Positions 1 to 26,457 of a DNA stretch of 64,000 nucleotides are shown piece after piece (the stretch's first letter is position 1; each line of letters begins with the position of its first letter). Source of the DNA: Terriglobales bacterium (GTDB lineage: Bacteria > Acidobacteriota > Terriglobia > Terriglobales > Acidobacteriaceae); assembly GCA_025934735.1 (NCBI GenBank), contig JAICWP010000020.1, forward strand, positions 1 to 64,000, given 5' to 3'. A model generated the notes under the pieces. It made no database searches and was not told the DNA's origin. It was given only the letters and a program-made list of their open reading frames with translations. Position numbers and translations under genes: made by a program.

Positions 1-303
<303 letters not shown>

Positions 304-323
304 AGGTCAGGTCCTAACAGGCT

Positions 324-1679
324 TCAGCAGCGCACCACGTTAGGCGCGGAAATGCCGCGCGTCGCGTTGCGTGTATCCACCACCAGCTGGGATTCGCGAA
401 CGATGCGGGCATAGTCATAATCCGAGTGGTCGGTCACGATGAGCACGCAATCGTACTGGCCAAAGTTCTCCAGCGGAGCACGCTTCATCTGCAGGTCATA
501 CTTGCGACCCTTACCGACGAAGGGGAAGTAGGGATCGTGATAGGAGACCTCTGCGCCCTGTTTTTGCAGCAGTTCGATAATGGTGAGCGCCGGTGATTCA
601 CGCAGGTCGTCAATGTCCTTCTTGTAGGCAACGCCGAGCACCAGAACTCGGGCGCCGTTTAGCGCCTTCTTCTGGCCGTTCAGAGCGGCGGTGACGGAGG
701 CCAGGACGTGGTAGGGCATACCGGTATTCACTTCGCCGGCCAACTCGATGAATCGCGTCTGGAAATCAAACTCCTTGGCCTTCCAGGAGAGGTAATAAGG
801 GTCCACCGGGATGCAGTGTCCGCCCAGTCCTGGTCCGGGATAGAAGGGGTGGAATCCGAAAGGTTTGGTGGAGGCGGCCTCAATCACCTCCCAGATGTCA
901 ATGCCCATGCGCAAGCAGAGCAGCTTCAATTCGTTGACCATTGCGATGTTGACGCAGCGATAGATGTTCTCCAGCAGCTTGGTCATTTCCGCCGCAGCGG
1001 GCGTGGAAACGCGCACCGTGCGGGCAAAGATCGAGCCGTAGAGCGCCGCAGCCAGGGCCGATGCCTGCGCATCCAGACCGCCTACCACCTTGGGAATGTC
1101 GCGCCGGGCCACTGTATCGTTGCCGGGGTCCTCGCGCTCCGGGGAGAAAGCAACGTAGAAGTCGCCAGCCTCCGAACCGTTGCGGGCGCTTTTCAATTTG
1201 TCTGGATTGCGTTCAAGAATTGGAACCAGCACTTCTTCCGTTGTGCCTGGGTAGGTGGTGCTCTCTAGAATAATCAGCTGGCCGGGCCGCACGTGGGGCG
1301 CTATGGCTTGAGCCGTATTCGTGATGTAGCTCATGTCCGGTTCGCGGTATTCGTCCAGGGGGGTGGGCACGCAGATGATGACTGCGTCCATGCTTTCCAG
1401 TTGAGAAAAGTCCGAGGTTGCGGCCAATCCCTGCTCGCGGGCCAGTTGAATTTCGCCCGGCGTGATGCGGTAGATGTAAGAACCGCCCTGTTGCAGCGTG
1501 TCCACCTTGCGTTGATCAATATCAAAACCCGTAACCGGGAACCGCTGTTCGGTGAAAAGCAGCGCCAGGGGCAGGCCGACATAGCCTAGCCCGATCACCC
1601 CTACCCGCGCTGTGCGCGTTTCAATCTTGTGCTTCAGCGCGCCCGCGAGTCCGGCCAGAGTTTGAGCTTGCGCAGACAT
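324..1679 (-). CDS. Nucleotide-sugar (UDP-HexNAc/UDP-hexose) 6-dehydrogenase
   Basis: The 451-residue protein belongs to the UDP-glucose/GDP-mannose dehydrogenase family, which oxidises C6 of a nucleotide sugar to a uronic acid with NAD+. The N-terminal Rossmann motif is VGVIGLGYVGLPLA, and the catalytic Cys lies in GPGLGGHCIPVDPYYL. That GGHCIPVDP form is typical of the UDP-N-acetylglucosamine/mannosamine branch (WecC, WbpA) and not of UDP-glucose dehydrogenase, so UDP-HexNAc is the likely substrate. The frame is open for 42 codons upstream, but I chose the ATG at 1679 because GGAGGG precedes it and the Rossmann fold follows at normal spacing. A sigma-54-like element lies just upstream. glmS follows and could supply its substrate pathway. 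Confidence 0.9.
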   Translation of the reverse strand: MSAQAQTLAGLAGALKHKIETRTARVGVIGLGYVGLPLALLFTEQRFPVTGFDIDQRKVDTLQQGGSYIYRITPGEIQLAREQGLAATSDFSQLESMDAVIICVPTPLDEYREPDMSYITNTAQAIAPHVRPGQLIILESTTYPGTTEEVLVPILERNPDKLKSARNGSEAGDFYVAFSPEREDPGNDTVARRDIPKVVGGLDAQASALAAALYGSIFARTVRVSTPAAAEMTKLLENIYRCVNIAMVNELKLLCLRMGIDIWEVIEAASTKPFGFHPFYPGPGLGGHCIPVDPYYLSWKAKEFDFQTRFIELAGEVNTGMPYHVLASVTAALNGQKKALNGARVLVLGVAYKKDIDDLRESPALTIIELLQKQGAEVSYHDPYFPFVGKGRKYDLQMKRAPLENFGQYDCVLIVTDHSDYDYARIVRESQLVVDTRNATRGISAPNVVRC

Positions 1680-1701
1680 AATTGCCCTCCGCCCCCTCAA
1701 G

Positions 1702-1717
1702 TGCAATCGAAGTACCA
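1702..1717 (-). promoter_or_regulatory. Sigma-54-like -24/-12 element for the dehydrogenase-glmS unit
   Basis: Read on the minus strand this is TGGTACTTCGATTGCA, against the consensus TGGCACG-N4-TTGCA. The GG-N10-GC core is exact and the -12 box TTGCA is perfect. The expected start of transcription is near 1691, which leaves a leader of about 12 nt containing the GGAGGG ribosome site before the ATG at 1679. The match was made by eye; GG-N10-GC alone is common by chance, and the extended match is what makes this one credible. Confidence 0.55.
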
Positions 1718-1888
1718 ACGCCCGCCAGAGGCAACTACGGTGCGAGGCTCCCATTTCCCTGCGTTTCTGTGCCCTTAAGCGGCTATTCGCAAAGGGGAAC
1801 CCCACCAGAGGCGGGGGACCGCAGTAGAAATGCCAGCACCCGCGACAGACCGGACTTTAGCCGTGGTGCCCGCTCCGCCCTCCCCGAG

Positions 1889-1904
1889 ATGAAATTTTTT
1901 GCAC
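1889..1904. promoter_or_regulatory. Putative enhancer (UAS) copy, divergent form
   Basis: ATGAAATTTTTTGCAC on the plus strand (minus: GTGCAAAAAATTTCAT) is a weaker copy of the 16-bp near-palindrome found in other gaps of this window. It lies about 170 bp upstream of the sigma-54-like element at 1702-1717. The 398-base gap 1680-2077 holds these two sites and nothing else I can recognise. Confidence 0.4.
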
Positions 1905-2077
1905 ATTCCGGGGAAATCGGGGTCCGCGTTTCGCCAAGTTTTTGGGCTGTTGGCAAATATTGTACTGCGCTCAGGTGGTTTGCGCGGAGGACTAATCAGC
2001 CCGATGAGCAATAGCTCAGGAAGTGCAAGACTCTAAGAGGCTTGGGAATGTTGCCAGAGCAGGCCGAGGGCCCAAAC

Positions 2078-2680
2078 TCATGGCTTGGTGCCGCTACCGC
2101 CCGTGCCGGCGGAGCGAGAAGCCGACTTTTCCCTATGAAGGGACTGCTCAATCTGCCGCGTCATAGCAGGTATGTCGAGATCGCGGCCGAGGAATGTGCA
2201 GATCCTCCCTGCTTCCTTCTCGGGCGCTTCCAGCACCGCCGGATATTCCACATAGAGCACAGCGATATTGGGTTGCTGGCCCAGCCAGGACTTGATCTTA
2301 GCGAGGTGCTCCTGGAAGGCGGCAATCACCGAAGCGGTCGGAGTGGTCGGAACCTCTTTGCCCAGGCGTTCCAGCATGCGGTTCTGAGACGAGACCACTT
2401 CCTCTAACGGGCGGCACATGAAAATCACGCGGTATTCGAACTGTTTTGGCAGAGTGGGCAACAGCGAGGAGATGATTTTCACTACCTTACCTTCGGCCTG
2501 GCCCACCACCTCCGCGTTGCGCGACAGGGATTTCACGGATTCCAGTTCGTAATAGCCGCGCGGATTATTGGCATCAGCCGAGCGCTGGCCGTCGGTAAGC
2601 ACGGGCATACCGCCCGCAGCCATCATTTGCATCATTAGGGAAGTACCAGAGCGCGGTATGCCGGAGACGATAGTTATCAT
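2078..2680 (-). CDS. Sulfotransferase-family protein
   Basis: The 200-residue protein begins MITIVSGIPRSGTSLMM. The GIPRSGTS segment at residues 7-14 is the 5'-phosphosulfate-binding loop of PAPS-dependent sulfotransferases. This short bacterial family is often annotated only as 'sulfotransferase' and its acceptors are mostly unknown. A role in sulfating the polysaccharide is possible, but nothing in the sequence proves it. The start is at the extreme N-terminus of the P-loop strand, normal for the family. The C-terminus is Gly/Ser-rich (TGGSGTKP). It may share a transcript with the pseudo-receiver gene upstream, across a 132-base gap. Confidence 0.75.
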   Translation of the reverse strand: MITIVSGIPRSGTSLMMQMMAAGGMPVLTDGQRSADANNPRGYYELESVKSLSRNAEVVGQAEGKVVKIISSLLPTLPKQFEYRVIFMCRPLEEVVSSQNRMLERLGKEVPTTPTASVIAAFQEHLAKIKSWLGQQPNIAVLYVEYPAVLEAPEKEAGRICTFLGRDLDIPAMTRQIEQSLHREKSASRSAGTGGSGTKP

Positions 2681-2812
2681 GAGAGATGGAGAAGTTTTCG
2701 GGCGGCCCAGCTTATCGTTGTGGCGACGCCGAGATTGGCCTCAGTGATTCTCGAGGAAAATCAATTATCCACCAACCCGCTCGCGCCGGTCAACCAAAGC
2801 GCTTGTGAATCG

Positions 2813-3241
2813 TCACGAGTTCCGCATCCGGTGCGGCACGCGGGGCAGAGCACTGTTGCGAGCCGCTGGCATTTCGATTCGGCTATTCCGGCTGCCCGCC
2901 ATGGGCAGCAGAACGCGCAAGCTCTCGACCAAAGCCTGTACCGGTTGGGTGGCGACCACGGCATCAACAGGAGTCGGCAGGCGTGAGTTGCGCCGGTCAC
3001 TGAGCACGATGATCGGCTTCTGGGGGCTGTTCAGCTTGATCCATGCGCACAGAGTAGCCACGTGATCCCACGGGACCTGCGGCCCGATCACCAGCGCGGA
3101 GCAGCCTCCCGGCACCCAACGCAGGCAGACTTCCACGACGTGTTCGGTGGTGAAAACCCGGTATCCGCGTGCCTTGAGCACGGCAGCGCGGAAATAACGA
3201 TGTTGCCCATCGAGCAGGACGATTTCAGAAGACGAGACCAC
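2813..3241 (-). CDS. Degenerate receiver-like (pseudo-CheY) protein
   Basis: With a GTG start at 3241 (GAGG five bases upstream) this gives a 142-residue protein. It opens VVSSSEIVLLDGQHRYFRAA and then shows alternating beta strands and helices like a response-regulator receiver domain: LDGQHRYFRAAVLKARGY, then SALVIGPQVP, then KPIIVLSDR. The third strand, where the phospho-acceptor Asp should sit, reads LVIGPQVPW, with no Asp. It would therefore not be phosphorylated in the usual way. The frame extends to 3490, but that would overlap the transporter gene, so I prefer the internal GTG. No output domain is present. Function unknown; the fold call is by pattern only. Confidence 0.55.
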   Translation of the reverse strand: MVSSSEIVLLDGQHRYFRAAVLKARGYRVFTTEHVVEVCLRWVPGGCSALVIGPQVPWDHVATLCAWIKLNSPQKPIIVLSDRRNSRLPTPVDAVVATQPVQALVESLRVLLPMAGSRNSRIEMPAARNSALPRVPHRMRNS

Positions 3242-3444
3242 TTCAACCTCACGAGTCCAGTTGCCAGCTTCGGGCGCGGAGCACGCGCAGGGGAGGGGTC
3301 GAAGAAGGCGTCGGAACAAAGCGAAGTATAGCACCCAGGTGCTCGCTCCTAGAGGTGAAATTCTTGTTAAAAAGGTTTCCACTTCCTGGGTATTGACAAG
3401 ACGCGGGTGGCGTGAAAACGGCAATGGACGAGTTGCGTCTAATA

Positions 3445-4218
3445 TCAGACCATCAGCATGCGGGCACCGGTGAGCAGCAGAACACCGCATAAAATGCGCT
3501 TGAGCCAGGGCGCCGGAATGCGGCTGCTGAGGCGAGTTCCGAGCAGGGCCCCCGGTATGGAGCCCACCAATAGATAGGCCACTAATGCCAAATCAACCGT
3601 CCCCAAGCGAAAATGCAGCAGGCTGGTAAAGCCGGTCAGCACCACAGCGTGCACGATGTCGGTGCCGACAACCAGAACCGGGGCGCACGGGAACATCATG
3701 AGTAATAGCATTGTGGTAACGCTGCCGGAACCAATGGAAGTCATCCCTACCAGGAAGCCGGCCAGCGCGCCGATGACCATCGCCGCGGGACGAAAACCAT
3801 CTTGCGGAAGGCGCAACTCGCCATCTCCGGCGCGCAGTCGTCCCTGGAAGAGCAGCAAGCCGGGAATCACGATCAACAGCACCCCGGTCACGACCTTCAA
3901 AAAATCGTTAACGCCGCTGCCGTAGTGCGCCCGCAGCAGAGCCAGCACGGCCACACCCGCGATCGCCCCGGGAACGCTGCCCATCAGAAGGGCGGCCACC
4001 AGGAATCGGTTGACCGATCCCTGGCGATAATGCAGATAGCCGGATCCCAGCTTGGTGACGGCGTTAAAGACCGCGTCTGAGCCCACCGCGATGATGGGAG
4101 GCACCCCAAAACCGAAGATTAAAAGCGGCAACAGCAACACTCCGGCGCCCATGCCGGTCATTCCAACCAGCAGCCCTACCAGCAAACCTATTAGGATCTT
4201 AGCGATATCAAGGTGCAT
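3445..4218 (-). CDS. TSUP-family (TauE/SafE) membrane transporter
   Basis: The 257-residue hydrophobic protein has about eight membrane segments and the internal duplication typical of the TauE/SafE (TSUP) family. The Gly-rich repeats GLLVGLLVGMTGMGAGVLLLP near residue 12 and AGFLVGMTSIGSGSVTTMLLL near residue 154 are the two half-signatures. Family members export or take up sulfite, sulfoacetate or related organosulfur anions; the substrate here is not readable. The start is an ATG at 4218 preceded by a sigma-54-like element, which suggests the same control as the polysaccharide genes. The nearby sulfotransferase-like gene makes a sulfur-related role thinkable but unproven. Confidence 0.85.
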   Translation of the reverse strand: MHLDIAKILIGLLVGLLVGMTGMGAGVLLLPLLIFGFGVPPIIAVGSDAVFNAVTKLGSGYLHYRQGSVNRFLVAALLMGSVPGAIAGVAVLALLRAHYGSGVNDFLKVVTGVLLIVIPGLLLFQGRLRAGDGELRLPQDGFRPAAMVIGALAGFLVGMTSIGSGSVTTMLLLMMFPCAPVLVVGTDIVHAVVLTGFTSLLHFRLGTVDLALVAYLLVGSIPGALLGTRLSSRIPAPWLKRILCGVLLLTGARMLMV

Positions 4219-4264
4219 GGGTGCAATCGGGGATAATTTGCATTATCGGACGGTTTTAACTGGG

Positions 4265-4280
4265 TGCACGAATGTTGCCA
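4265..4280 (-). promoter_or_regulatory. Sigma-54-like -24/-12 element for the TSUP transporter
   Basis: On the minus strand the site reads TGGCAACATTCGTGCA: exact TGGCA at -24 and GTGCA at -12 with GG-N10-GC spacing. The transporter ATG is 47 bases downstream. Assigned by eye. Confidence 0.45.
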
Positions 4281-4394
4281 ATCCGAACAAACGCGCAAAT
4301 GCTTAATAAGAGGCTTTGTGAGCAGGCAAAGGCTGGATTGAAGCTGTAGATCCCAACCTGTTTTACGCGGATAGGAAAACTCCGGGTCCGAAGG

Positions 4395-4410
4395 ATGAAT
4401 TAGTTTTCAC
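4395..4410. promoter_or_regulatory. Weak copy of the 16-bp enhancer-like motif
   Basis: ATGAATTAGTTTTCAC matches the right half (TTTTCAC) of the repeated near-palindrome exactly and the left half at four of seven positions. It lies about 115 bp upstream of the sigma-54-like element at 4265-4280. On its own it would not be convincing; position supports it. Confidence 0.3.
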
Positions 4411-4481
4411 TTTGTACCGGACCGATACGCGTAGCCTGAAAGCAGAGGCCCACAGGTCTGCGGAAGCAATCTGGCCCAGAA

Positions 4482-6164
4482 TCAGGGAACTGGTTTAATG
4501 CCCGCTTGCAGTTGCCAGCCGGGGTTCGGTCCGGTTCCGGCATACGCGCCGCGGAACGTGAATGTGCCTTTGAGAGCACGGTTGAAATCCAGATTGTAAT
4601 CAGCATTGGCCGTAAAAGCCGAAACGTTCAGTGCGGTCCCCTGCGCTTGTCCCACCAGCGGATAAAAGTTCATAGAACCGAGGGTCAGGGAGGGCGCGGC
4701 TACGTAATGAGTCGCATTGGCGAAGGTGTCGCTGATGTTATCCGACTGATGGGCAATTGACCCGCTGATAGGCGTGGCCGCGAACACCAGGTTGCCAATT
4801 ACGTCGTCGCCGGTTCTGGCCAGACTGCCGAAATAAATCCCCCTTTGGGTGCTGTAGACAGTGTTGTTGTACACATAGGCCAATTCCAGCGGCAGGTTGT
4901 GGTCGGTAAATACGGCCGCGGCATATTGCCCGTCAACCAGGACGTTGTCATGAAAACTGATTCGGCCCGAACCCTGGAACAAGGCCTCGCGGGGGTTGTG
5001 GTAGAAAAAATTCCCGTAGATCTCGTATAAGTTGCTGGATCCCGGACCGGAGCTCGGAAAGCCGTCCACCAGTAGATTGGGACGATTCCCATCCGGGCTC
5101 GGTTGATCATTCTTGATAAAGACGTTGTTGCGGATAACAGTAGAAGTTGGGCCGGTGGGCATGCCGGGAATGGAAGGCCAGGGCAGCTGATATTTGATCT
5201 CCATGCAGTAGCCAACCGGGTTCTGAATCAAATTATCCTCGATCACGCCGGCAACAAGGGGATCGGTCCCATCGGCATTTCCCAGGTAAATCCCTGTGCC
5301 TGCTCCGATGATCTTGTTGCGCCGGATGACCCATCCCCAGGTTGGCGTCTTGGTGGAGATGCCATCGGTTTGCTGGCTTGCGCCTTGGCCTACCAGAGTA
5401 TTTCTTTGGATCAAAATGTCGTGAGTCAGATTGGAGAGGCCGCCGTGCGCGCTGATGCCGAAGGCGCCGTCGATGCCAAGGCTGTCAATGGTCAGATTCT
5501 CGAGTGCCAAAAAGCTGGAGTTCGCGATCTCGACCGTGTTGGCTCCCACTACCCCCTGAATGACCGCCGGCGAACCCGAAGCAGGGCCGGTGATCACGAT
5601 GCATTGTGAGGCAGTGCCGCGCAAACCGGAAACGTACAGGCCGGGATAGTTTCCCGCCGCCAGGGACAATGTTTCTCCGGGCTGTAGTTTGTTCAGCAAT
5701 GATTTGTAATTGGATGGAGTCGCGTTCACGATTGGTCCGCTAAGAGGCGTGGAGCATAAGGAAGCGGAAGCCGCAGGAGTTGCCAGCGTTGCAAACGCTG
5801 CGTCTCCACTCACCGCCTGGCCGGAAGCATCGGCGGAGTGCACGCGATAGTGGTAGCCGGTTCCGGCGTTTAAACCGTTCAAAATCACCTGGTGATTGAC
5901 CGCCGGGCCGGAGTCCAGGGCAGTCACGGATCCATAGCTGGCGCTGGGGCCATACTCCACCTGGGAACTGGAAGGAAGGTTCGTGGTCCAGGTAACCACA
6001 GCCGAGTTATTGCTCACACTCCCAGCCGCGACTTGTGAGATAGCAAGGGAAGTCGAAGTCGTCGGGTTCTGGCTCGGAGGGCCCGCTTGAGCCACAGGGC
6101 CGCCACCGCAGCCAAAGCATGCCAGCATCACCAGCACGAGGAGAAAGCCAAGGCCAATTCTCAT
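4482..6164 (-). CDS. Lipoprotein with FnIII-like domain and right-handed beta-helix
   Basis: The 560-residue protein begins with a lipoprotein signal, MRIGLGFLLVLVMLACFGCG, with a Cys after residue 15. A fibronectin type III-like domain follows at about 42-127 (AAGSVSNNSAVVTWTTNLPS, then HYRVHSADASGQA). From about 150 there is a parallel beta-helix with short repeated turns (GTGIYLGN, VIEDNLIQNPVGYC, ISFHDNVLVDG), the fold of pectate-lyase-like polysaccharide-binding or cleaving proteins. It is a close paralogue of the protein at 8555-10042, which lacks the FnIII part. Both share STKTPTWGWVIRRNKI. Substrate and catalysis cannot be read; a role at the cell surface on the exopolysaccharide is inference. 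A sigma-54-like element lies 45 bases upstream. Confidence 0.85.
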   Translation of the reverse strand: MRIGLGFLLVLVMLACFGCGGGPVAQAGPPSQNPTTSTSLAISQVAAGSVSNNSAVVTWTTNLPSSSQVEYGPSASYGSVTALDSGPAVNHQVILNGLNAGTGYHYRVHSADASGQAVSGDAAFATLATPAASASLCSTPLSGPIVNATPSNYKSLLNKLQPGETLSLAAGNYPGLYVSGLRGTASQCIVITGPASGSPAVIQGVVGANTVEIANSSFLALENLTIDSLGIDGAFGISAHGGLSNLTHDILIQRNTLVGQGASQQTDGISTKTPTWGWVIRRNKIIGAGTGIYLGNADGTDPLVAGVIEDNLIQNPVGYCMEIKYQLPWPSIPGMPTGPTSTVIRNNVFIKNDQPSPDGNRPNLLVDGFPSSGPGSSNLYEIYGNFFYHNPREALFQGSGRISFHDNVLVDGQYAAAVFTDHNLPLELAYVYNNTVYSTQRGIYFGSLARTGDDVIGNLVFAATPISGSIAHQSDNISDTFANATHYVAAPSLTLGSMNFYPLVGQAQGTALNVSAFTANADYNLDFNRALKGTFTFRGAYAGTGPNPGWQLQAGIKPVP

Positions 6165-6208
6165 GGTATTTGTTGGCGTTAAGCTTTGGCCATAGTAAGC
6201 GAAAATGC

Positions 6209-6224
6209 GGCGATGCTCGCGCCA
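6209..6224 (-). promoter_or_regulatory. Sigma-54-like -24/-12 element for the beta-helix lipoprotein
   Basis: On the minus strand it reads TGGCGCGAGCATCGCC, with exact GG-N10-GC and TGGC-CG agreement at -24; the -12 box is TCGC instead of TTGC. It lies 45 bases before the ATG at 6164 and about 118 bp from the enhancer-like motif at 6342-6357. Confidence 0.4.
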
Positions 6225-6341
6225 CGAAAGGACACGGAGCCGACTGTCCCTTTGGACAACTATTCCCGGTCGGCCGGCGAGGAATTCGTTCGGCCAGGGC
6301 GTTCTTGCGGGCCGGGTAGGAGAAAAAATTCAGGCCAGAGT

Positions 6342-6357
6342 GTGAAAACTTTTTCTC
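6342..6357. promoter_or_regulatory. Putative enhancer (UAS) between the beta-helix gene and the tRNA
   Basis: GTGAAAACTTTTTCTC has left half GTGAAAA and right half TTTTCTC around a 2-bp centre, one mismatch from a perfect palindrome. It sits between two sigma-54-like elements, one reading left (6209-6224) and one right (6531-6546), so a single bound regulator could act both ways. The 595-base gap 6165-6759 contains these sites, a terminator-like hairpin, an inverted repeat and the tRNA. Confidence 0.5.
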
Positions 6358-6389
6358 TTTTCTTTGTTCTTCCCGTACATCGGAAGCTT

Positions 6390-6417
6390 AAGCCGCCCTT
6401 TCGGTGCGGCTTCTTTT
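6390..6417 (+). terminator. Terminator-like hairpin with trailing T-rich tail
   Basis: AAGCCGC at 6390-6396 pairs perfectly with GCGGCTT at 6406-6412 around a 9-nt loop, followed by CTTTT. It resembles a rho-independent terminator reading rightward, but no plus-strand gene ends here. It could end a small transcript starting near 6342 or block read-through toward the tRNA. Confidence 0.45.
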
Positions 6418-6494
6418 AAGTGGAACGCTGGTCACGTTCATGGCTACCCCTCGCGTCTATGTCTAGAAAGCACTGAAACATAACGGGGGATATT

Positions 6495-6517
6495 GTGTCC
6501 CTCCGGTCTAGGGACAC
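6495..6517. repeat. Perfect 8-bp inverted repeat with 7-nt spacer
   Basis: GTGTCCCT (6495-6502) and AGGGACAC (6510-6517) form a perfect inverted repeat around CCGGTCT. There is no T-run after it, so it is not a terminator. It lies 14 bases before the sigma-54-like element and 44 before the tRNA and could be an operator or an RNA hairpin. Function unknown. Confidence 0.5.
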
Positions 6518-6530
6518 TGCCAGCCCGGTT

Positions 6531-6546
6531 TGGGCCGACGTTTGCA
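6531..6546 (+). promoter_or_regulatory. Strong sigma-54-like -24/-12 element before the tRNA
   Basis: TGGGCCGACGTTTGCA matches the sigma-54 consensus at TGG, CG and the full TTGCA, with exact GG-N10-GC spacing. Transcription would begin near 6557, about four bases before the first base of the tRNA at 6561. It could drive the tRNA alone or the tRNA plus the lipoprotein gene at 6760. I see no convincing sigma-70 boxes in the same place. Confidence 0.5.
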
Positions 6547-6560
6547 AGGTGGAACAGCGA

Positions 6561-6639
6561 AGGCGGATAGCTCAACTGGAAGAGCGCCCCGGCTATTACA
6601 ACGGGGAGGTCGCAGGTTCGAGCCCTGCTCTGCCTACCA
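6561..6639 (+). tRNA. tRNA with 10-nt anticodon loop (Val-UAC by 3' geometry, uncertain)
   Basis: The 79-nt sequence folds as a cloverleaf. The acceptor AGGCGGA pairs with TCTGCCT (one G-U), the D stem is GCTC/GAGC with G18-G19, the T arm is GCAGG-TTCGAGC-CCTGC, the variable loop is AGGTC, the discriminator base is A and CCA is encoded. The anticodon stem CCCCG/CGGGG (6587-6591, 6602-6606) is perfect, but its loop GCTATTACAA is 10 nt instead of 7. Counting from the 3' side gives U33, anticodon UAC and A37, hence valine; A73, A35 and C36 agree with valine identity. A15 faces C48, which is not a standard pair. It may be a specialised, suppressor-like or decaying tRNA. Confidence 0.75.
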
Positions 6640-6759
6640 TTTTTTTTTGCTCAGTTCCCGGAAGCAGCGCCACTCCAACGGCCAGCTCTACTGCCCAAAC
6701 ATTGCGGGGCGCGGACGGAATTAGAGACGAACCGATGCTGGGTTAGGGGAGTAAGACCG

Positions 6760-8541
6760 ATGTCCAGATTCTTGGCTCTTTTGGTGGTGTTGCTGTTGAG
6801 CATTACCCTGGTGGGTTGCCTTGGTTCAGGATCATCGAGTTCGGAGGGATCGAACTCGCCATCGGCTACGTCGATTTCGGTGACGCCACAGAATTCCGCA
6901 GTGACGGTCGGCAAGACCTTGCAGTTCTCCGCCCAGGCCACCCTGAGCGACGGCTCCAACAAGGACGTCAGTTCCACCGGCACTTGGACGACGTCCGATA
7001 CCAGCATTGCCACCGTGAATTCTTCCGGCGTCGTAACTGCCGTCAAAATGGGAGTCGTACTAGTTGGCGTCAGCAGCGGCCAGGCCAAAGCTGCCACTAT
7101 TCTGAACATAACCTCGAAAAAATTCAGTCAATCCAGCCTGAGTGGCACCTACGCGTTCGATTTGACCAGCGAAAGCAACCACCCCCGCTTTGAAGCCGGC
7201 AGCATAAAGGCGGATGGGGCAGGGAACTTCAGCGGCATCGAAGACATCAATTCCTCTTCCGGAGTTCAGAAAGCAGTGCCGCTTTCCGGCACCTACACCG
7301 TTATGGCCGATGGCCGCGGCAGCCTGACCCTGAACACCACCGGCGCTAGCGCGCGCACCTTCCATTTTGTGCTTTCTGCGAATTCTGGTTCGGCCGGCGA
7401 CAACGACGCGCAGCTTATCCAGTTTGATAAAGCGGGCACGGCTGTTGGTGAGATTCAAAAGCAGAACACCTCGTCGTTTAATAACAGCTCTCTTGCCAAT
7501 CACACCTATGTGTTTCGTGCCGGCGGGCTGGATGCCACCCAGAGTCCCATTTCCAGAATCGGTGAATTCGCCCTAGACGGCACGGGAACAGCGCTGACCT
7601 CCGGACAGCAGGACGAGAACGACAACGACACCATCAACAGCGGCGCTGGTGCGACCAACTCTGTTGCTATAGCTTCCGGCACCGTGGGGGCTGTGGATTC
7701 GAGCACAGGCCGAGCCACGTTGACGCTAACCGTAGGCAGCAAGGCCGCCGATTTTGCTGCCTACGTGATTTCTGCTAATAAGCTGGAAATTATCGGAGTG
7801 GATGCTGCTCCCATGCTCCTGGGCGAAGCCGAGATGCAGGTCAGCCCGCTGCCCGCCTCCGCTACCGCGGGCGGGTACACGATGGTGACTGAAATCGGCG
7901 GCATGCGCGGACAGTACTGGATGATGGGCGAATTCACTTTGGACAGTGTCGGCAATATTACCGGCCTCGTCCAGTACCAGGACGGTAGCACGACGCCTTT
8001 CGGTGAACTCCTCCCCAATTCTATTAGCCTCTCCGCGAGTGGCAGGGGAAACCTCACTGAATTCACAACTGCAGCTCAGGCGACGCGCGCATTTACCGTC
8101 TACATGGTTTCAGGTACCCGCATGTATGTTCAGCAAACAAACGATGCTCATGCGGCTACCGGAGTAGCGGACCTGCAACAACCCGGTCAGGACGGTTTTG
8201 GTGTCGCCACTCTCAACAACAGTTTTGCCTTTGTGGCCGCCGACACCAGCGACGGCAACCTCGCTATCGTCGGCCAAGTTGTTGCCGACGGAGCCGGCCA
8301 TTTTACAGGCGTGCTGGACGTCAGCCAGCCCCAACCCGGCAATCCATCGCAGATCACCGTGTCTACGGTGGCTCTGGGTGCCAACTATCAGGCGCCCGGT
8401 AGCATCGGGATGACTCTGGGCACGGTGAATACATCGGGAGCAGGTGTCCAGAATTTCGTCTTGTGCCTAGTCTCTTCCAGCAAGGCTCGGTTCCTGGGAC
8501 TTTCGCCGATAGACTTGAACGGCACTCTTCGAGTGCAGTAG
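6760..8541 (+). CDS. BIG2-domain lipoprotein with repeated beta domains
   Basis: The 593-residue protein has a lipoprotein signal (MSRFLALLVVLLLSITLVGC, Cys 20), a low-complexity Ser/Gly linker and a bacterial Ig-like (BIG2) domain at about 37-115 (SISVTPQNSAVTVGKTLQFS). Four related beta-rich repeats of roughly 105 residues follow, each with a 'Y/F-F ... G-F-DG-G---G' core such as AGSIKADGAGNFSGIEDIN and VGQVVADGAGHFTGVLDVS. This architecture is frequent among secreted acidobacterial proteins of unknown function; adhesion or matrix binding is a guess. GGGGAG precedes the ATG. It follows the odd tRNA by 120 bases and may share its promoter. The stop lies 13 bases from the stop of the convergent beta-helix gene. 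Confidence 0.8.
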   Translation: MSRFLALLVVLLLSITLVGCLGSGSSSSEGSNSPSATSISVTPQNSAVTVGKTLQFSAQATLSDGSNKDVSSTGTWTTSDTSIATVNSSGVVTAVKMGVVLVGVSSGQAKAATILNITSKKFSQSSLSGTYAFDLTSESNHPRFEAGSIKADGAGNFSGIEDINSSSGVQKAVPLSGTYTVMADGRGSLTLNTTGASARTFHFVLSANSGSAGDNDAQLIQFDKAGTAVGEIQKQNTSSFNNSSLANHTYVFRAGGLDATQSPISRIGEFALDGTGTALTSGQQDENDNDTINSGAGATNSVAIASGTVGAVDSSTGRATLTLTVGSKAADFAAYVISANKLEIIGVDAAPMLLGEAEMQVSPLPASATAGGYTMVTEIGGMRGQYWMMGEFTLDSVGNITGLVQYQDGSTTPFGELLPNSISLSASGRGNLTEFTTAAQATRAFTVYMVSGTRMYVQQTNDAHAATGVADLQQPGQDGFGVATLNNSFAFVAADTSDGNLAIVGQVVADGAGHFTGVLDVSQPQPGNPSQITVSTVALGANYQAPGSIGMTLGTVNTSGAGVQNFVLCLVSSSKARFLGLSPIDLNGTLRVQ

Positions 8542-8554
8542 ATAGTGGACGGCG

Positions 8555-10042
8555 CTAATAAGTCTTGCGGCGTAAAACTTTCAGTTCCGCTGCCGGTCTC
8601 CATCCAGGGTTGCGCCCGCTGCCGGCGTACGCCCCGCGATAAGCCCGCTTCCCCTTGGGTTGGTGGTTGAAATCCAGTTGATAGTCCACTTCGTTGGCAA
8701 ATTGGGATAGGTCCAGAGGGTCGCCCTGCGCTCGCTTGCCTGAGGGATAGAAATCCATTGACTTCAGCGAGAAGGAAGGGGCGTTGACGTACTGCGCGGC
8801 ATTGGCCATGGTGTCCCCCATGTTTCCTCTGAGGTGCCGTATGGGGCCGCTGATCGGGGTAGCCGCAAACACCAGATTTCCCACTAACGCGTCATCCTCG
8901 GCGGCAGCATTCTCGAAGTGAATACCGGCACGGTTGGTATAAATCGTGTTGTTGTACACGTAGGCAACTTTGAGTGGAAGATCGTGGTCGCGAAAAACGG
9001 CGGCTGCGGCCTGTCCGCCAACCAGAATGTTGTCGTGAAATGAAACCCGGCCCGAAGCCTGGAACAGGGCTTCCCGCGGATTGTAATAAAGCAAATTGCC
9101 GTAGATTTCGTATCGGTCTTGCGCGCCGGGGCCAGATTCCGGAAATCCGCCCACCAGCAGATTGGGACGGTCACCATCCGGGCTGGGCTGGTCATTCTTG
9201 ATGAAGACATTATCGCGAATGATGGTGACACTGGGCCTTGTGGGCATGCCAGGCACCGCGGGTCGCGGCGATTGATATTTGATTTGCAGGCAGTAGCCGA
9301 TGGAATCCTCAATCAGATTGTCTTCGATGATGCCGTCAAAAAACGGACTGCTGCCATCGGAGTTGCCCAGGTACACACCCGTACCCGCGCCCAGGATTTT
9401 ATTGCGCCGGATCACCCATCCCCACGTCGGGGTCTTGGTGGAAATCCCGTCCGTCTGCTGGGCGCCCCCTTGACCAATGAGGGTGTTGCCCTCGATGAGG
9501 ATGTGGTGGGTCACGCTGGAAGTGCCGCGGCCGGCGCTGATGCCAAACGCCCCCGGGATGCCGCGGCTGTCTATCAACAGGTTCTTCAGCCCCACATAGC
9601 TGGAATTGACAATGTCCACGGTGTTGAAGCGGGGCACGCCTTGAATTACGGCAGGCGGTCCCTCCGTGGGCCCGGTGATGACGATGCATTTTCCCGGTTG
9701 GCCGCGCAGGTCCACGATATTCAGCCGGGGGTAATTGCCCGGGGCAAGCAGCATGGTCTGGCCCGGCCGTAATCTGCGCAGGATGTGGGCGTAATTGGAA
9801 GGGTTAGCCGCGATGCGCTCGCCTGTACCAGAGGTGGAACATAGCTCCGCAGGTGCAGCCCCGCGGGAAATCGTCGCTGAGCGATTGCCGCCAGCAGCGG
9901 CGTTGCGGGAGCCGTTGTGGCTTGTGGACATGGACTCCTTATCTCCGGACTGGGTTTGCGGGATACCTGCCCCGGCCTCCCACCCCCTCGCCGGTGAGGC
10001 CGCGAGTAGCAGGCCGAGCGAAAACAACATCGCGAATCGCAT
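8555..10042 (-). CDS. Secreted right-handed beta-helix protein (paralogue of 4482-6164)
   Basis: The 495-residue protein starts MRFAMLFSLGLLLAASPARG, a standard secretion signal without a lipobox. The frame is open to 10123, but GGGAAG and the signal peptide favour the ATG at 10042. After a Ser/Gly-rich stretch comes a parallel beta-helix nearly identical in plan to the protein at 4482-6164: both carry GQTDGISTKTPTWGWV-like turns, RNKILGAGTGVYLGN, ISFHDN and AVFTDHNLPL-type segments, and end in YRGAYAGSGRNPGW. It lacks the FnIII domain and the lipid anchor of its paralogue, so this one is probably released and the other tethered. Substrate unknown. Confidence 0.85.
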   Translation of the reverse strand: MRFAMLFSLGLLLAASPARGWEAGAGIPQTQSGDKESMSTSHNGSRNAAAGGNRSATISRGAAPAELCSTSGTGERIAANPSNYAHILRRLRPGQTMLLAPGNYPRLNIVDLRGQPGKCIVITGPTEGPPAVIQGVPRFNTVDIVNSSYVGLKNLLIDSRGIPGAFGISAGRGTSSVTHHILIEGNTLIGQGGAQQTDGISTKTPTWGWVIRRNKILGAGTGVYLGNSDGSSPFFDGIIEDNLIEDSIGYCLQIKYQSPRPAVPGMPTRPSVTIIRDNVFIKNDQPSPDGDRPNLLVGGFPESGPGAQDRYEIYGNLLYYNPREALFQASGRVSFHDNILVGGQAAAAVFRDHDLPLKVAYVYNNTIYTNRAGIHFENAAAEDDALVGNLVFAATPISGPIRHLRGNMGDTMANAAQYVNAPSFSLKSMDFYPSGKRAQGDPLDLSQFANEVDYQLDFNHQPKGKRAYRGAYAGSGRNPGWRPAAELKVLRRKTY

Positions 10043-10119
10043 TGGCAGGGCTTCCCAGTTCAGGATCCGATCTTGTGCAGAATCGCGCCTGTGTTTGGGG
10101 CAGTTCACGATTGCCGATG

Positions 10120-10674
10120 TCATCCCGGTTCGCCATTGTCCAGCATGGCTAACAGGCGATCCAGTTGCTCACGGGTTTTCCCTTCGGCTAAATTACGCAG
10201 CAGTTGTTTGCCTTCTTCGCAGTCGCGGTAAAAGCGGGCGTAGCAGGCGAGAGTCAGCAGGCCCGCGAGTTTGCGCACTGCCAGGTGCTCATTGCGCGAC
10301 TCGCCTATGGCAATCAGTTCGCCGGGGATCACGCGCGCCAACTCGGTCTTCATTTGCGTGCGCAGCAGGCCAGCGTACTGGGTACTGGCGTGCTGCTCCC
10401 GGCGCGCGCCGCTTCCGAAACTCCCATGCAGGAGAAATTGCATGGAACGGCTGAGTTCCTGCCAGTGCTGCAGGCGCTGCAGCCAGCGAGCCTGCTCGTA
10501 CTGATGCCATAGCGCAGCGAACTGCTCGCCCAGCAAGTCGCTTCCCAGTTCCACCAGCAAACGGTGCTCTTCCGTCTGCAGAAAAATCTCCCTCATACCC
10601 CCGATGCCTCGGACGACAAGATAAAGTTCGGCACTGAGGCATAGAAGCAGTAAGCAGGCGAGTGCCGACAGCAT
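10120..10674 (-). CDS. Small membrane-anchored protein of unknown function
   Basis: With the ATG at 10674, preceded by GGAGGAC at good spacing, this gives 184 residues. The upstream start at 10794 has no ribosome site. The N-terminus MLSALACLLLLCLSAELYLV is a membrane anchor or signal. The rest is helical and charged (EQARWLQRLQHWQELSRSM, NLAEGKTREQLDRLLAMLD) and looks coiled-coil-like and periplasmic. I recognise no family. It is just upstream of the beta-helix gene on the same strand and may be co-transcribed with it; the gap to that start is 77 bases. Confidence 0.6.
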   Translation of the reverse strand: MLSALACLLLLCLSAELYLVVRGIGGMREIFLQTEEHRLLVELGSDLLGEQFAALWHQYEQARWLQRLQHWQELSRSMQFLLHGSFGSGARREQHASTQYAGLLRTQMKTELARVIPGELIAIGESRNEHLAVRKLAGLLTLACYARFYRDCEEGKQLLRNLAEGKTREQLDRLLAMLDNGEPG

Positions 10675-10819
10675 GGGAGTGCGTCCTCCGCGGAACAGGA
10701 ACGGTAACCTGACTGTTTGCCGGGGGTCAACAGCCTCCTGAAGCTTGCCCTGGTGCTTCTTCGCGGCCTGTTTGGGGTAACTTGATGCCGGCATTCAGGG
10801 AAAAGTCTGAGCCCGCTGA

Positions 10820-10835
10820 GTGCAAAGTTTTTCAC
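10820..10835. promoter_or_regulatory. Putative enhancer (UAS) in divergent gap
   Basis: GTGCAAAGTTTTTCAC has halves GTGCAAA and TTTTCAC, one mismatch from a perfect palindrome. It lies in the 381-base divergent gap 10675-11055, about 147 bp upstream of the sigma-54-like element at 10982. Nothing else recognisable is in the gap. Confidence 0.6.
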
Positions 10836-10981
10836 TTCAGCCCCTATAGAATGGAGCAATGCAGGCCAAAGGCAGGGCTGCAAGGCGTTCTTGCTTGCCG
10901 AAATCGCCCAAAGACGGGGGGGCCGCATGTTGATAGAAGGTTTAAAATGTGCGCCAATGCTGAATGTTGACGGGACGACTT

Positions 10982-10997
10982 TGGAGCGTGGTGTGCA
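10982..10997 (+). promoter_or_regulatory. Sigma-54-like -24/-12 element for the stp1-type glycosyltransferase
   Basis: TGGAGCGTGGTGTGCA has TGG, CG and TGCA in place with exact GG-N10-GC spacing; the -12 box is GTGC. It lies 58 bases before the ATG at 11056. By-eye call. Confidence 0.45.
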
Positions 10998-11055
10998 TAC
11001 ATCGTGGGCACTGCAGCCGGCCCGGCCCGCCGATGCGCCGGAGCCTTGAAGAAAA

Positions 11056-12288
11056 ATGAGAATTCTCTTTGTTTGCCACCGTTTGCCGTTCCCGCCCAAC
11101 CGGGGCGGCAAGATCCGTCCTTTCCAGATGATCCGGCATCTCGCTGAGCGACACTCGGTAACCATAGCCACTTTGGCTCACTCGCAGGAAGAAGTGGAGC
11201 AGGGAAGCAAGCTGCGGGAGTTCTGCGAGCAACTGCTAGTCGAGATCGTTCCCAACCCGATCCGCTGGGGGCGGGCCTTGCTTGGGTTGGCCAGCGCCAA
11301 ACCCTCCTCCGGCCAATACTTCTGGTCGCCCGCGCTACAGAGCAGAATTGCCGCCACAGCCCAGACGCGAGGGTTTGACCGGGTTTGGGTGCACTGCGCC
11401 TTCATGGCCCGCTACGTCATTGATGTCCCCTGCGATTTCAAAGTGCTTGATTACGGCGACATAGATTCCTCCAAGTGGGCGGATTACAGCCAGCACCGGA
11501 GTTTTCCACTGTCCATGGGTTACGGCCTGGAAGCAAAAAAACTGCGCCGATGGGAAAAGCAAATGGGGCGCCGCTTCACCCGCTGCACCGTGACCACCAG
11601 CAACGAACTGGTGGAATTTGAATCGCTCGGGATTCCCAAACCGTGTACGGTGATTCCCAACGGAGTTGATATTGAGTATTTCAACCCCCGGCATAGAACG
11701 GCCGCGAGTAAGCCGGTGATGGTTTTCGTGGGCCGCATGGATTACTTTCCCAATATTGATGGCATGCTTCAATTTGTGAACCACAGTTGGCCGCGCATTC
11801 GCGACGCTGTTCCTGACGCGGAACTGCGCATCGTGGGCTCGAATCCCGCCGCTTCCATCATGTGCCTGCGCGAGTTACCCGGCGTTCAGGTAACCGGCCA
11901 CGTGCCCGATGTTCGGCCCTATGTGGGAGATGCGGCTGTCGGCATCGCCCCTTTGCGAATCGCCCGCGGCACGCAAAACAAGGTGCTGGAGATGATGGCG
12001 ATGGGCTTACCGGTGGTGGCCAGCACGGAAGCTTCGCGGGGAATTCGCGCCCGCGCTGGCGAGCACCTCATGGTTGCCGAGAACAGCGATATGTTTATTA
12101 CCCAAGTCATTGAACTATTACGCGATCGCGAACGCGGTGAGCGCCTGGGCGCTGCCGGGAGGGCTCAGGCAGTGAAAGGTCACTCTTGGCCGGCTTCCAT
12201 GGCCATTGTGGATGAGGTGCTCGAGTTGGAGGGAAGCGCTGCCGTTGCCGGTGGTGAGCCCGCTTCACAATTGACCGTAACGACTTAG
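11056..12288 (+). CDS. Glycosyltransferase, PEP-CTERM/XrtA-associated stp1 type
   Basis: The 410-residue GT-B enzyme begins MRILFVCHRLPFPPNRGGKI, the characteristic opening of the exosortase-A-associated sugar transferase family that I know as TIGR03087. The donor-binding half carries KPVMVFVGRMDYFPNIDGM and the acidic segment VGIAPLRIARGTQNKVLEMM, where the usual Glu of the EX7E motif is near the end of the stretch. It should add a sugar from a nucleotide donor to a lipid-linked oligosaccharide on the cytoplasmic face. It is followed 40 bases later by a nucleotide-sugar dehydrogenase. The exact sugar cannot be read. Confidence 0.88.
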   Translation: MRILFVCHRLPFPPNRGGKIRPFQMIRHLAERHSVTIATLAHSQEEVEQGSKLREFCEQLLVEIVPNPIRWGRALLGLASAKPSSGQYFWSPALQSRIAATAQTRGFDRVWVHCAFMARYVIDVPCDFKVLDYGDIDSSKWADYSQHRSFPLSMGYGLEAKKLRRWEKQMGRRFTRCTVTTSNELVEFESLGIPKPCTVIPNGVDIEYFNPRHRTAASKPVMVFVGRMDYFPNIDGMLQFVNHSWPRIRDAVPDAELRIVGSNPAASIMCLRELPGVQVTGHVPDVRPYVGDAAVGIAPLRIARGTQNKVLEMMAMGLPVVASTEASRGIRARAGEHLMVAENSDMFITQVIELLRDRERGERLGAAGRAQAVKGHSWPASMAIVDEVLELEGSAAVAGGEPASQLTVTT

Positions 12289-12327
12289 CGCGATTTTCCG
12301 ATCAAAGCTTTTAAAGGAGTTGTGCAC

Positions 12328-13716
12328 GTGCCACCATCCATCAGCATTTTCGGCCTGGGATATGTAGGTTCGGTAACCGCAGCCTGCCTGGCAAACCAGG
12401 GCTGCCGGGTTGTGGGTGTAGATACTAATCCGCAGAAGGTAGCGCAGTTGGCCGCCGGCAACGCCCCGGTAGTCGAACCGGGCTTGCAGGAGTTGATTGC
12501 GGCAGCTTGTAACTCGTTTTTGCTTGCGGCGACAACGGATTCCGAAAAGGCGATCTTGAGCACCGATGTTTCATTTATCTCGGTGGCTACTCCCAGCCTG
12601 CGCAGCGGGAAGTTGGACCTCACCTCAATTGAGCGGGTTTGCCGGACCATTGGAGAAATCCTGCGGCTCAAGCAAACATTTCACTGGATTGTGTTGCGCA
12701 GCACGGTTCTTCCGGGCACCACCGACTCCTTCGTAACGCCACTCCTGGAATCCAGCAGCGGAAAGCGGGCTGGCAAGGACTTTGGCGTCTGCTTCAACCC
12801 CGAGTTTCTGCGCGAAGGTACTGCCATCGCCGACTTCGCTCGCCCGCCGTTCACGGTTCTGGGTATAACTGACGGCCTGGAGTGTTCTCCGCTGCTCCAG
12901 ATATACGGGCAATTGCCCGCTCCCCTGCATCAAACAGACACCCGTACCGCGGAGATGATCAAGTACGTCTGCAACGCCTTTCACGCCTTAAAGGTCAGTT
13001 TTGCCAATGAGGTGGGAGCGCTCTGCAATGAACTGGGCGCAGATCCGGGCTTAGTCACAAATATCTTCACGTCTGATACCAAGCTCAACATCTCACCCGC
13101 CTACCTGACGCCGGGCTTTGCCTTTGGGGGCTCCTGCCTACCCAAGGATTTGCGGGCTCTGACTTACCGTGCCAAGGAACTGGACCTCACCGTGCCCCTG
13201 TTGAACGCCATTTTGCCCAGTAACCAGGAACACATCCAGCGCGCGGCGGAAGAAGTTCTGCAGACCGGCAAGAGGGAAATCGGGGTTCTGGGTCTGAGCT
13301 TTAAAAGCGGAACGGACGATTTGCGGGACAGCCCCATGGTGCACCTGGTGAAGCGCCTGCTGGGCGAGGGCTGCCGCTGCCACATCTGGGACCACAATGT
13401 GCGCTTGGGTCAGATTGTGGGTTCCAATCGTGAGTTCATCCAGAATACGATTCCTCATATCGGCGCCCTCCTGCGTGAGGATGTGGCGGACGTGCTGAGT
13501 TCGTCGGAAGTCGTGCTGCTGGCGACCAAGGAACTTAGTTCTGAAGACGTTCTTCGCCGCCTGCGCAGCGACCAGATCCTGATAGACGTAGTTCATTTAC
13601 AGAAGGCCAAATCGGCCACGCTGGGCCCAACTCCGTCTGGCAAAGCGGCCGAATCCGACGCGCCCCCAGCCGAGTCCGAGCAGGCGCCGGCCATGAGCGT
13701 GCGCCAGTCTGGGTGA
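12328..13716 (+). CDS. GDP-mannose/UDP-glucose dehydrogenase family protein (AlgD-like)
   Basis: The 462-residue protein has the N-terminal Rossmann motif ISIFGLGYVGSVTAACLA and a catalytic segment PGFAFGGSCLPKDLRALTYR. GGSCLPKD with RALTYRA is typical of GDP-mannose 6-dehydrogenase (AlgD) and less of UDP-glucose dehydrogenase (GGSCFPKD), so GDP-mannuronate is the likely product. GTG codons at 12322 and 12328 both fit; GGAG lies 8 bases before the latter, which I prefer. The last 40 residues are an Ala/Pro/Ser/Glu-rich tail not usual for the family. Together with the dehydrogenase at 324-1679 this gives two distinct uronic-acid suppliers in one window. Confidence 0.85.
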   Translation: MPPSISIFGLGYVGSVTAACLANQGCRVVGVDTNPQKVAQLAAGNAPVVEPGLQELIAAACNSFLLAATTDSEKAILSTDVSFISVATPSLRSGKLDLTSIERVCRTIGEILRLKQTFHWIVLRSTVLPGTTDSFVTPLLESSSGKRAGKDFGVCFNPEFLREGTAIADFARPPFTVLGITDGLECSPLLQIYGQLPAPLHQTDTRTAEMIKYVCNAFHALKVSFANEVGALCNELGADPGLVTNIFTSDTKLNISPAYLTPGFAFGGSCLPKDLRALTYRAKELDLTVPLLNAILPSNQEHIQRAAEEVLQTGKREIGVLGLSFKSGTDDLRDSPMVHLVKRLLGEGCRCHIWDHNVRLGQIVGSNREFIQNTIPHIGALLREDVADVLSSSEVVLLATKELSSEDVLRRLRSDQILIDVVHLQKAKSATLGPTPSGKAAESDAPPAESEQAPAMSVRQSG

Positions 13717-13732
13717 GTTGTTCGGCGATGAA

Positions 13733-19873: not shown

Positions 19874-19883
19874 TTACCTACAA

Positions 19884-21284: not shown

Positions 21285-21329
21285 GGTTATCTGGGGAGAA
21301 GCAAAGACGAAGCTCTTTTGGGGGAAGAT

Positions 21330-26205: not shown

Positions 26206-26457
26206 ATGTACCCCAACTTGAAGCTGCAGATTTGGAGATCGGGGATCCACCAGAACCGGCTGGCGCGCGAGTTGAGCATAGATGAGACTCTCCTCAGCCG
26301 CATTATTAATGGATATCGCGAGCCCTCTGCCGGCGTGAAGAGCCGTATCGCAAAGTATTTTCAGCTCGATCCGGAATGGCTGTTCCAGAGCGAGTCCGAA
26401 TCCCTTTCCAGACGGGTGCCGCGGAACGGGAGCAGTCGAGAGCAGAGGAAATGGTAA
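26206..26457 (+). CDS. Small XRE-type helix-turn-helix protein
   Basis: The 83-residue protein has one helix-turn-helix: IWRSGIHQNRLARELSIDET, then LLSRIINGYREPSAGVKSRI, and a short basic tail. A strong AAGGAG lies before the ATG. The last seven bases overlap the start of the FemAB gene (ATGGTAA), so translation is coupled. It lacks a ligand domain. It may be a local repressor or fine-tuner of the operon, or a phage-repressor-like relic recruited to it; the target site is unknown. Such a gene is not a standard part of exosortase-type clusters. Confidence 0.75.
   Translation: MYPNLKLQIWRSGIHQNRLARELSIDETLLSRIINGYREPSAGVKSRIAKYFQLDPEWLFQSESESLSRRVPRNGSSREQRKW

Follow-up and report, generated by a model that had tools for sequence, protein, structure and literature searches.

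Bacterial tRNA genes are generally transcribed by the housekeeping sigma factor, and the non-proteinogenic tRNA-Gly species of Staphylococcus aureus are linked to Fem enzymes. These extra isoacceptors, present beside the normal ones, are thought to supply the peptidoglycan bridge and to escape to cell-wall synthesis, with G18 G19 replaced and the 51-63 pair weak (PMC4052509). In XrtA systems, RpoN-dependent PEP-CTERM genes lie behind -24/-12 promoters in an exopolysaccharide (EPS) setting (PMC1569441; Aquincola pepA, PMC9850573), and SufB2-type +1 frameshifting tRNAs carry one extra base in the anticodon loop (PMC7803779). Parts of these published texts served for comparison with a tRNA gene in a 64,000-nt stretch of DNA (the window) from a member of the Acidobacteriaceae.

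The gene resembles the staphylococcal tRNAs in being an extra isoacceptor beside normal ones, in the changes at G19 and 51-63 of its ortholog from another genus (G086), and in the FemAB-family gene of its locus. It differs from them in being a valine tRNA with a sigma-54-like promoter in an EPS cluster; the window copy also keeps G18 G19, and donor use is here a proposal. With the RpoN-dependent PEP-CTERM genes it shares a -24/-12-type promoter and the XrtA EPS setting, but it is a tRNA that stands behind the promoter and PrsR is not found above the cut-off. An enlarged anticodon loop is common to this gene and SufB2, but the window tRNA has three extra nucleotides, belongs to valine and has an ortholog with a loop of normal size. 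Among the literature matches listed, taken short of full texts, we recognised no sigma-54-driven or EPS-dedicated tRNA.

Results

The genome carrying the window (G000) has a size of 4.94 Mb and is 99.83% complete. ARAGORN found a single tRNA in the window, at 6561-6639 (+), which it named tRNA-???. Rfam model RF00005 gave the same interval 51.2 bits (gathering score 29), low among the 42 matches in G000, with Trp (37.1) and several long-arm tRNAs scoring lower. The gene and the features around it are as follows.

6495-6517 (+): perfect 8-bp inverted repeat, GTGTCCCT-N7-AGGGACAC, just 5' of the sigma-54-like box; absent from the G086 alignment
6531-6546 (+): sigma-54-like -24/-12 box, TGGGCCG-ACGT-TTGCA; 10 of 12 consensus positions, GG and GC intact
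6561-6639 (+): diverged tRNA-Val(UAC) paralogue with encoded CCA, 79 nt (ARAGORN, RF00005, Val alignment, tree)
6587-6606 (+): anticodon arm; stem 6587-6591 / 6602-6606 CCCCG/CGGGG, loop 6592-6601 GCTATTACAA
6592-6594 (+): GCT, the 3 nt missing from the G086 ortholog in the alignment (G086 loop ATTACAT)
6597-6599 (+): valine anticodon TAC in the 3'-anchored register, U33 at 6596
6640-6648 (+): run of nine T right after CCA; not in G086
6760-8541 (+): lipoprotein-like protein with a Big_2 domain, next gene 3' of the tRNA
19836-21284 (+): EpsB_2, XrtA/PEP-CTERM glycosyltransferase (TIGR03013, 457.0 bits)
21318-23645 (+): PrsT-type TPR protein of the XrtA system (TIGR02917, 352.0 bits)
26376-27512 (+): FemAB family XrtA-associated protein, candidate aminoacyl-tRNA user (TIGR03019, 395.3 bits; Pfam FemAB 8.6e-12)

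The preliminary description, made from the letters of the window, had proposed a tRNA with all cloverleaf parts and an encoded CCA whose perfect 5-bp anticodon stem closes a 10-nt loop, and both points held. The stems are complete (acceptor stem 7 bp with one G.U, D stem 4 bp, T stem 5 bp), T54 T55 C56, G18 G19, A73 and CCA are in place, and the CCCCG/CGGGG anticodon stem is perfect and encloses ten nucleotides, not seven. Numbering back from the 3' side gives A32 U33 UAC A37 A38 in the loop, with the valine anticodon that had been proposed; CTA, TTA or ATT registers had been offered as alternatives, but only the UAC register was seen to place U33 before the triplet and a purine after it. The run of nine T may end the tRNA transcript.

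At 15-48 the window tRNA has A-C, not G-C or A-U, a flaw that the preliminary description had missed. Among the other tRNAs of G000, 32 have G-C or A-U and 3 were unreadable by the script; for 5 (3 Ser, 2 Cys) it gave A-C, in our judgement through an offset in the D stem. The same tRNA set includes an 88-nt gene called as Cys(GCA) (G000:C8:203586-203662, L061), which departs from the two ordinary Cys tRNAs in its 8-bp acceptor stem and long variable arm and may be a tRNA-Sec-like or allo-tRNA gene. Asp, Phe and Ile(GAT) were absent among the ARAGORN-named tRNAs of G000, and several ends of contigs C19, C21, C35, C36 and C43 lie within ~100 bases of a tRNA gene; the assembly likely has gaps at tRNA or rRNA repeats.

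We then compared the gene with the other valine tRNAs of its genome, where Val(UAC), Val(CAC) and Val(GAC) are all present in ordinary form. In the alignment the window gene and the genome's own Val(UAC) have in common the T arm, the variable loop and the acceptor core with its G.U; the likeness to tRNA-Val(UAC) of the same family extends over ancestry, the core GGCGG/CTGCC, A73, CCA and UAC in one register. Against this background the window copy shows paired changes at 1-72 and 7-66 (A1-U72, A7-U66), a rebuilt yet perfect anticodon stem, a D loop one base shorter and A15 replacing G15, so that 15-48 is A-C where the ordinary Val genes and, from its sequence, the G086 copy have G-C. It differs further in the 3 extra loop nucleotides, the sigma-54-like box and the EPS locus. 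The alignment identifies the window gene as a diverged additional copy of tRNA-Val(UAC).

Identity elements for charging are retained. Bacterial ValRS is described as recognising A35, C36, A73, G45 and G3-C70 (PMC9976931, in part), and the window tRNA has all of these in the 3'-anchored register. G20, which counts as a minor valine element in E. coli, is absent from the window tRNA and ordinary Val(UAC) alike.

Relatives of the gene were sought in 397 genomes of the order with a covariance model whose only source was the window gene itself. It gave that gene, as it had to, 114.4 bits and, among the places listed (at least ~69 bits), no other of 79 nt, although diverged copies could be missed because the model stands on a single gene and places were listed only to ~69 bits. 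A 75-nt ortholog is present in G086, a genome of a different genus in the same family, with the same acceptor ends, an identical anticodon stem and the 7-nt loop ATTACAT. The acceptor-stem pattern was found in 48 of 398 genomes of the family (a sample overlapping heavily with the 397), and its A1-U72 form only in G000 and G086, the other 46 being ordinary G1-C72 Val genes; the paralogue is thus carried by two genomes only. In a tree of 53 rows the window gene and the G086 copy are sisters (support 95/89). They are identical at 66 of 75 ungapped positions and differ at 2 of 42 stem positions, of which one keeps its pair and one breaks a T-stem pair in G086. The variable loop, A73 and CCA are almost unchanged between them. 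The G086 copy has lost G19 and has an A-G mismatch at 51-63, and G086, like G000, also has ordinary Val(UAC) genes.

Because the ortholog has a 7-nt loop, the 10-nt loop is a local 3-nt insertion, private to the window's lineage as far as seen in these sequences. The preliminary description had named relatives with a normal loop at this locus as refuting its proposal, being the sign of a local mutation. G086 provides such a relative, but its tRNA has another position in the homologous cluster: it lies 9 nt before the epsB2 start codon in G086 and 13 kb before epsB2 in the window.

Searches elsewhere yielded no further tRNA with such a loop. A 10-nt-loop pattern gave 31 matches in the 398 family genomes, and among the 30 with loci only the window's was a tRNA by ARAGORN. 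Three viral-contig matches to the exact loop and four genome-collection matches to the TTACAA register were rejected because ARAGORN did not recognise them as tRNAs; the latter four are probably 3' halves of Val tRNAs left as integration-site remnants. L094-L097, L072, L089 and L091, apparent tRNA 3' halves without a matching 5' half, are probably integration-site remnants; the spacing pattern finds them readily. An 85-nt match in G278 includes N and was set aside as an assembly gap. A separate 75-nt Val(CAC) gene in G061 (L302 5142-5216) has a short D loop and a long branch in the Val tree and lies ~47 kb from an EPS locus; no sigma-54 box was seen before it by eye.

The surroundings of the window tRNA had been described as an EPS cluster, and profile models bear this out by assigning the cluster to the XrtA/PEP-CTERM type. 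The deacetylase, EpsB_2, PrsT and FemAB exceed the model cut-offs. For the export, chain-length and amidotransferase genes XrtA models are the closest, with scores below the cut-offs, and a tyrosine-kinase-like gene is below the cut-off for all models listed. In G086 the tRNA is followed by EpsB_2 (TIGR03013, 407.2 bits) and then PrsT; a FemAB homolog (TIGR03019, 315.2 bits) is present, and the same contig has homologs of the window's export, chain-length, kinase, FemAB, glycosyltransferase, amidotransferase and O-ligase genes. The tRNA therefore belongs to homologous loci.

The gene immediately 3' differs between the two. In the window the Big_2 gene follows after a gap of 120 nt on the same strand and could lie on the tRNA transcript if the T run fails to terminate. 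A tblastn search with its protein drew no match at E 1e-15 from 100 EPS regions of relatives, nor at E 1e-10 from G086 contig C113. Two minus-strand NosD-like-repeat paralogues, 62% identical (4482-6164 and 8555-10123), flank the tRNA and the Big_2 gene; conserved neighbour order was considered and dropped, as 60 relatives yielded no more than partial homologs of the gene at 4482-6164. Upstream, at 6390-6412 (+), is a terminator-like hairpin, AAGCCGC-N9-GCGGCTT followed by CTTTT, before which no same-strand gene end was seen; it could be the 3' end of a small RNA. A mobile origin was likewise rejected: the tRNA end has no repeat within window 5900-7100, composition does not shift across window 1-14000, the best phage matches, where annotation exists, coincide with or adjoin ordinary tRNAs, and plasmid matches are mostly partial. 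The acceptor pattern had no match among viral contigs.

For a wider view of these loci, 80 epsB2 regions were hand-picked from places in 136 of 280 genomes (E 1e-90), mostly by top score, with seven places of the g79 genus and a second G086 locus added. The EPS regions reach ~15 kb upstream and many are cut at contig ends; 20 include the downstream side, and those of G014 and G061 were extended further. The only tRNAs in the 80 regions of relatives are two ordinary ones (Arg, Ala), and none is linked to sigma-54; weak model matches in EPS loci L194 and L229 look like chance inside coding sequence. FemAB is itself uncommon: among 100 EPS regions, most of which reach little downstream, 2 have it (L238 of G014 and L279 of G061). 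The homologous G014 locus, which has FemAB, lacks such a tRNA, so FemAB does not need the tRNA; in G061 there is just the Val(CAC) gene ~47 kb off.

We next considered the promoter, scoring against the consensus TGGCACG-N4-TTGCW with GG and GC 10 nt apart. The box upstream of the tRNA, with its GC at 6544-6545, predicts a transcript start at ~6557, 4 nt 5' of the tRNA, in agreement with the preliminary description. Taken singly it is weak evidence, because such boxes are equally common in shuffled sequence: sites with at most 2 mismatches number 15 in the window against 14.8 expected from shuffles, and 0.47% of 60-mers drawn at random from the window contain such a site. Among 40 tRNA upstream regions in G000, only that of the window tRNA scores at least 10, the next best scoring 8.

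The G086 tRNA is preceded by TGGCACG-TAAC-TTGCG, which matches 11 of 12 consensus positions. The distance from the GC of the box to the tRNA start is 15 nt in the window and 17 nt in G086. Over 250 nt on either side, the flanks of the two tRNAs resemble each other no better than shuffles do (p 0.27 upstream, 0.39 downstream). With base rates from 2.85 million strand positions (window, G086 and the 80 EPS regions), the chance of a box within 16 positions is 8e-4 for at least 10/12 and 9e-5 for at least 11/12; the joint chance of both boxes is ~7e-8 assuming independence, a post hoc figure uncorrected for how they were found. Across 119 distinct tRNA upstream regions, a box of at least 9 at this distance precedes three: the window tRNA, the G086 tRNA and a G353 tRNA-Arg. 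The box before the G353 tRNA-Arg(TCG) was discounted as chance, having been pulled in by the pattern itself and with TAAAAT nearby. The sigma-54 link is the part of the original observation that gained support from these sequence comparisons, and the proposal of a regulated tRNA tied to the EPS locus is strengthened by a second genus with a better box, at nearly equal distance, in a homologous locus.

G000 has rpoN (TIGR02395 above cut-off) and 24 NtrC-like matches of at least 282 bits; no PrsR exceeds the curated cut-off in this genome (best 424.3 against 502.6 bits). No other clear sigma-54 promoter was found in the window's own cluster, including before the main EPS genes. The inverted repeat at 6495-6517 is a possible activator site or hairpin. 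In relatives' EPS loci L195, L199 and L241, 11/12 boxes (L195 10808 (-), L199 8548 (+), L241 8056 (+)) lie 39 to 93 nt before sigma-54 activator genes whose products match Pfam Sigma54_activat and HTH_8 without a receiver match, as if these activators controlled themselves and the locus; over all EPS loci, 11/12 boxes are not in excess (15 against 13 in shuffles). G086 has a second 11/12 box (L181 9535 (+)) in the same intergenic stretch, pointing opposite to the tRNA, toward a GNAT-like gene.

Discussion

The gene, its valine ancestry, its ortholog, the two boxes and the homologous loci are established, and from them we infer promoter use, charging and a donor role. The reading we favour, at a probability of about 0.4, is a sigma-54-controlled, EPS-linked valine tRNA that is chargeable and stands beside or outside translation, most likely as an induced donor with the FemAB protein as candidate user. 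As a member of an XrtA/PEP-CTERM EPS locus, this extra copy of tRNA-Val(UAC) would be transcribed from a sigma-54 promoter, and so only once an enhancer-binding activator switches the promoter on. The 10-nt loop is a later 3-nt insertion in the window lineage. Features read by ValRS and CCA-end enzymes (acceptor stem, A73, CCA, anticodon stem, A35 C36) have been kept, and decoding features lost, differently in each copy, namely loop size and the 15-48 pair in the window and G19 and a T-stem pair in G086. Because charging features are kept and decoding features lost, the pattern points to a chargeable valine tRNA at the margin of translation or outside it. As the donor proposal has the tRNA released from decoding, its anticodon loop would be free to change. 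An EF-Tu argument of the staphylococcal kind applies to G086 alone, because in the window G18 G19 are still present and the T stem, A51-U63 included, is that of the ordinary Val tRNA. The specific step in which the tRNA feeds valine to a FemAB-type transferase, with the amino acid decorating a polysaccharide or carrier, is doubtful as it stands.

Ranked close behind the induced-donor reading, though itself unlikely, is slow decay: a Val(UAC) copy in the EPS locus that was once used, with both copies now losing function, the window's via its loop insertion. This would account for lesions that differ between the two copies, for the rarity of the gene (the acceptor pattern finds it in 2 of 398 genomes) and for its absence from the homologous G014 locus. 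The terminal branches of the two copies, 0.07 and 0.09, also lie at or beyond the upper end of what other Val(UAC) genes of the family show, 0 to 0.08. Simple neutral decay is nevertheless disfavoured because the stems have hardly changed between two genera whose flanking DNA has diverged to saturation; the variable loop, A73 and CCA have likewise barely moved, and the sigma-54 box is kept in both genomes.

Less probable than decay is a tRNA-like leader: the sigma-54 transcript would carry the tRNA fold ahead of an EPS gene, and cleavage there by RNase P and 3' processing would determine where the downstream mRNA begins and how stable it is. The arrangement in G086 is suggestive, in that the 9 nt between CCA and the epsB2 start codon have no Shine-Dalgarno-like sequence, and in the window the next gene lies 120 nt downstream on the same strand. 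A T run directly follows CCA in the window, however, the genes 3' of the two tRNAs are non-homologous, and a leader would have no need of a conserved anticodon and an encoded CCA.

An induced second Val(UAC) that aids translation of EPS proteins seems improbable. The valine anticodon is kept in both copies, the G086 loop has the normal 7 nt, and codon choice is not identical between the cluster and its background, taken crudely as the longest ORFs of each locus: GTT makes up 23.9% of Val codons in 27 window ORFs against 16.1% in 43 background ORFs, and GTG 41.2% against 49.8%. GTA itself is not enriched (10.9% against 10.6%), so extra GUA decoding meets no obvious need; both genomes have ordinary Val(UAC) genes, and decoding features are damaged in both copies.

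A suppressor of frameshifts or nonsense codons acting through the larger loop, as the preliminary description had suggested, might in theory expose CTA, TTA or a longer anticodon but is very improbable and was not borne out, since the ortholog's 7-nt loop means that expansion is not the conserved feature, U33 and a purine at 37 occur only in the UAC register, and no other true 10-nt-loop tRNA was found in 29 other checked matches from the 398 family genomes or in the four genome-collection matches.

If the favoured account of a sigma-54-controlled valine tRNA is true, EPS loci of two genera contain a tRNA paralogue under tight activator-dependent control, and XrtA-associated FemAB proteins gain a candidate donor. 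The pair of genes would also offer a simple case of which tRNA features persist once decoding is secondary. Should the donor role in particular hold, a tRNA gene would be a regulated part of a polysaccharide pathway.
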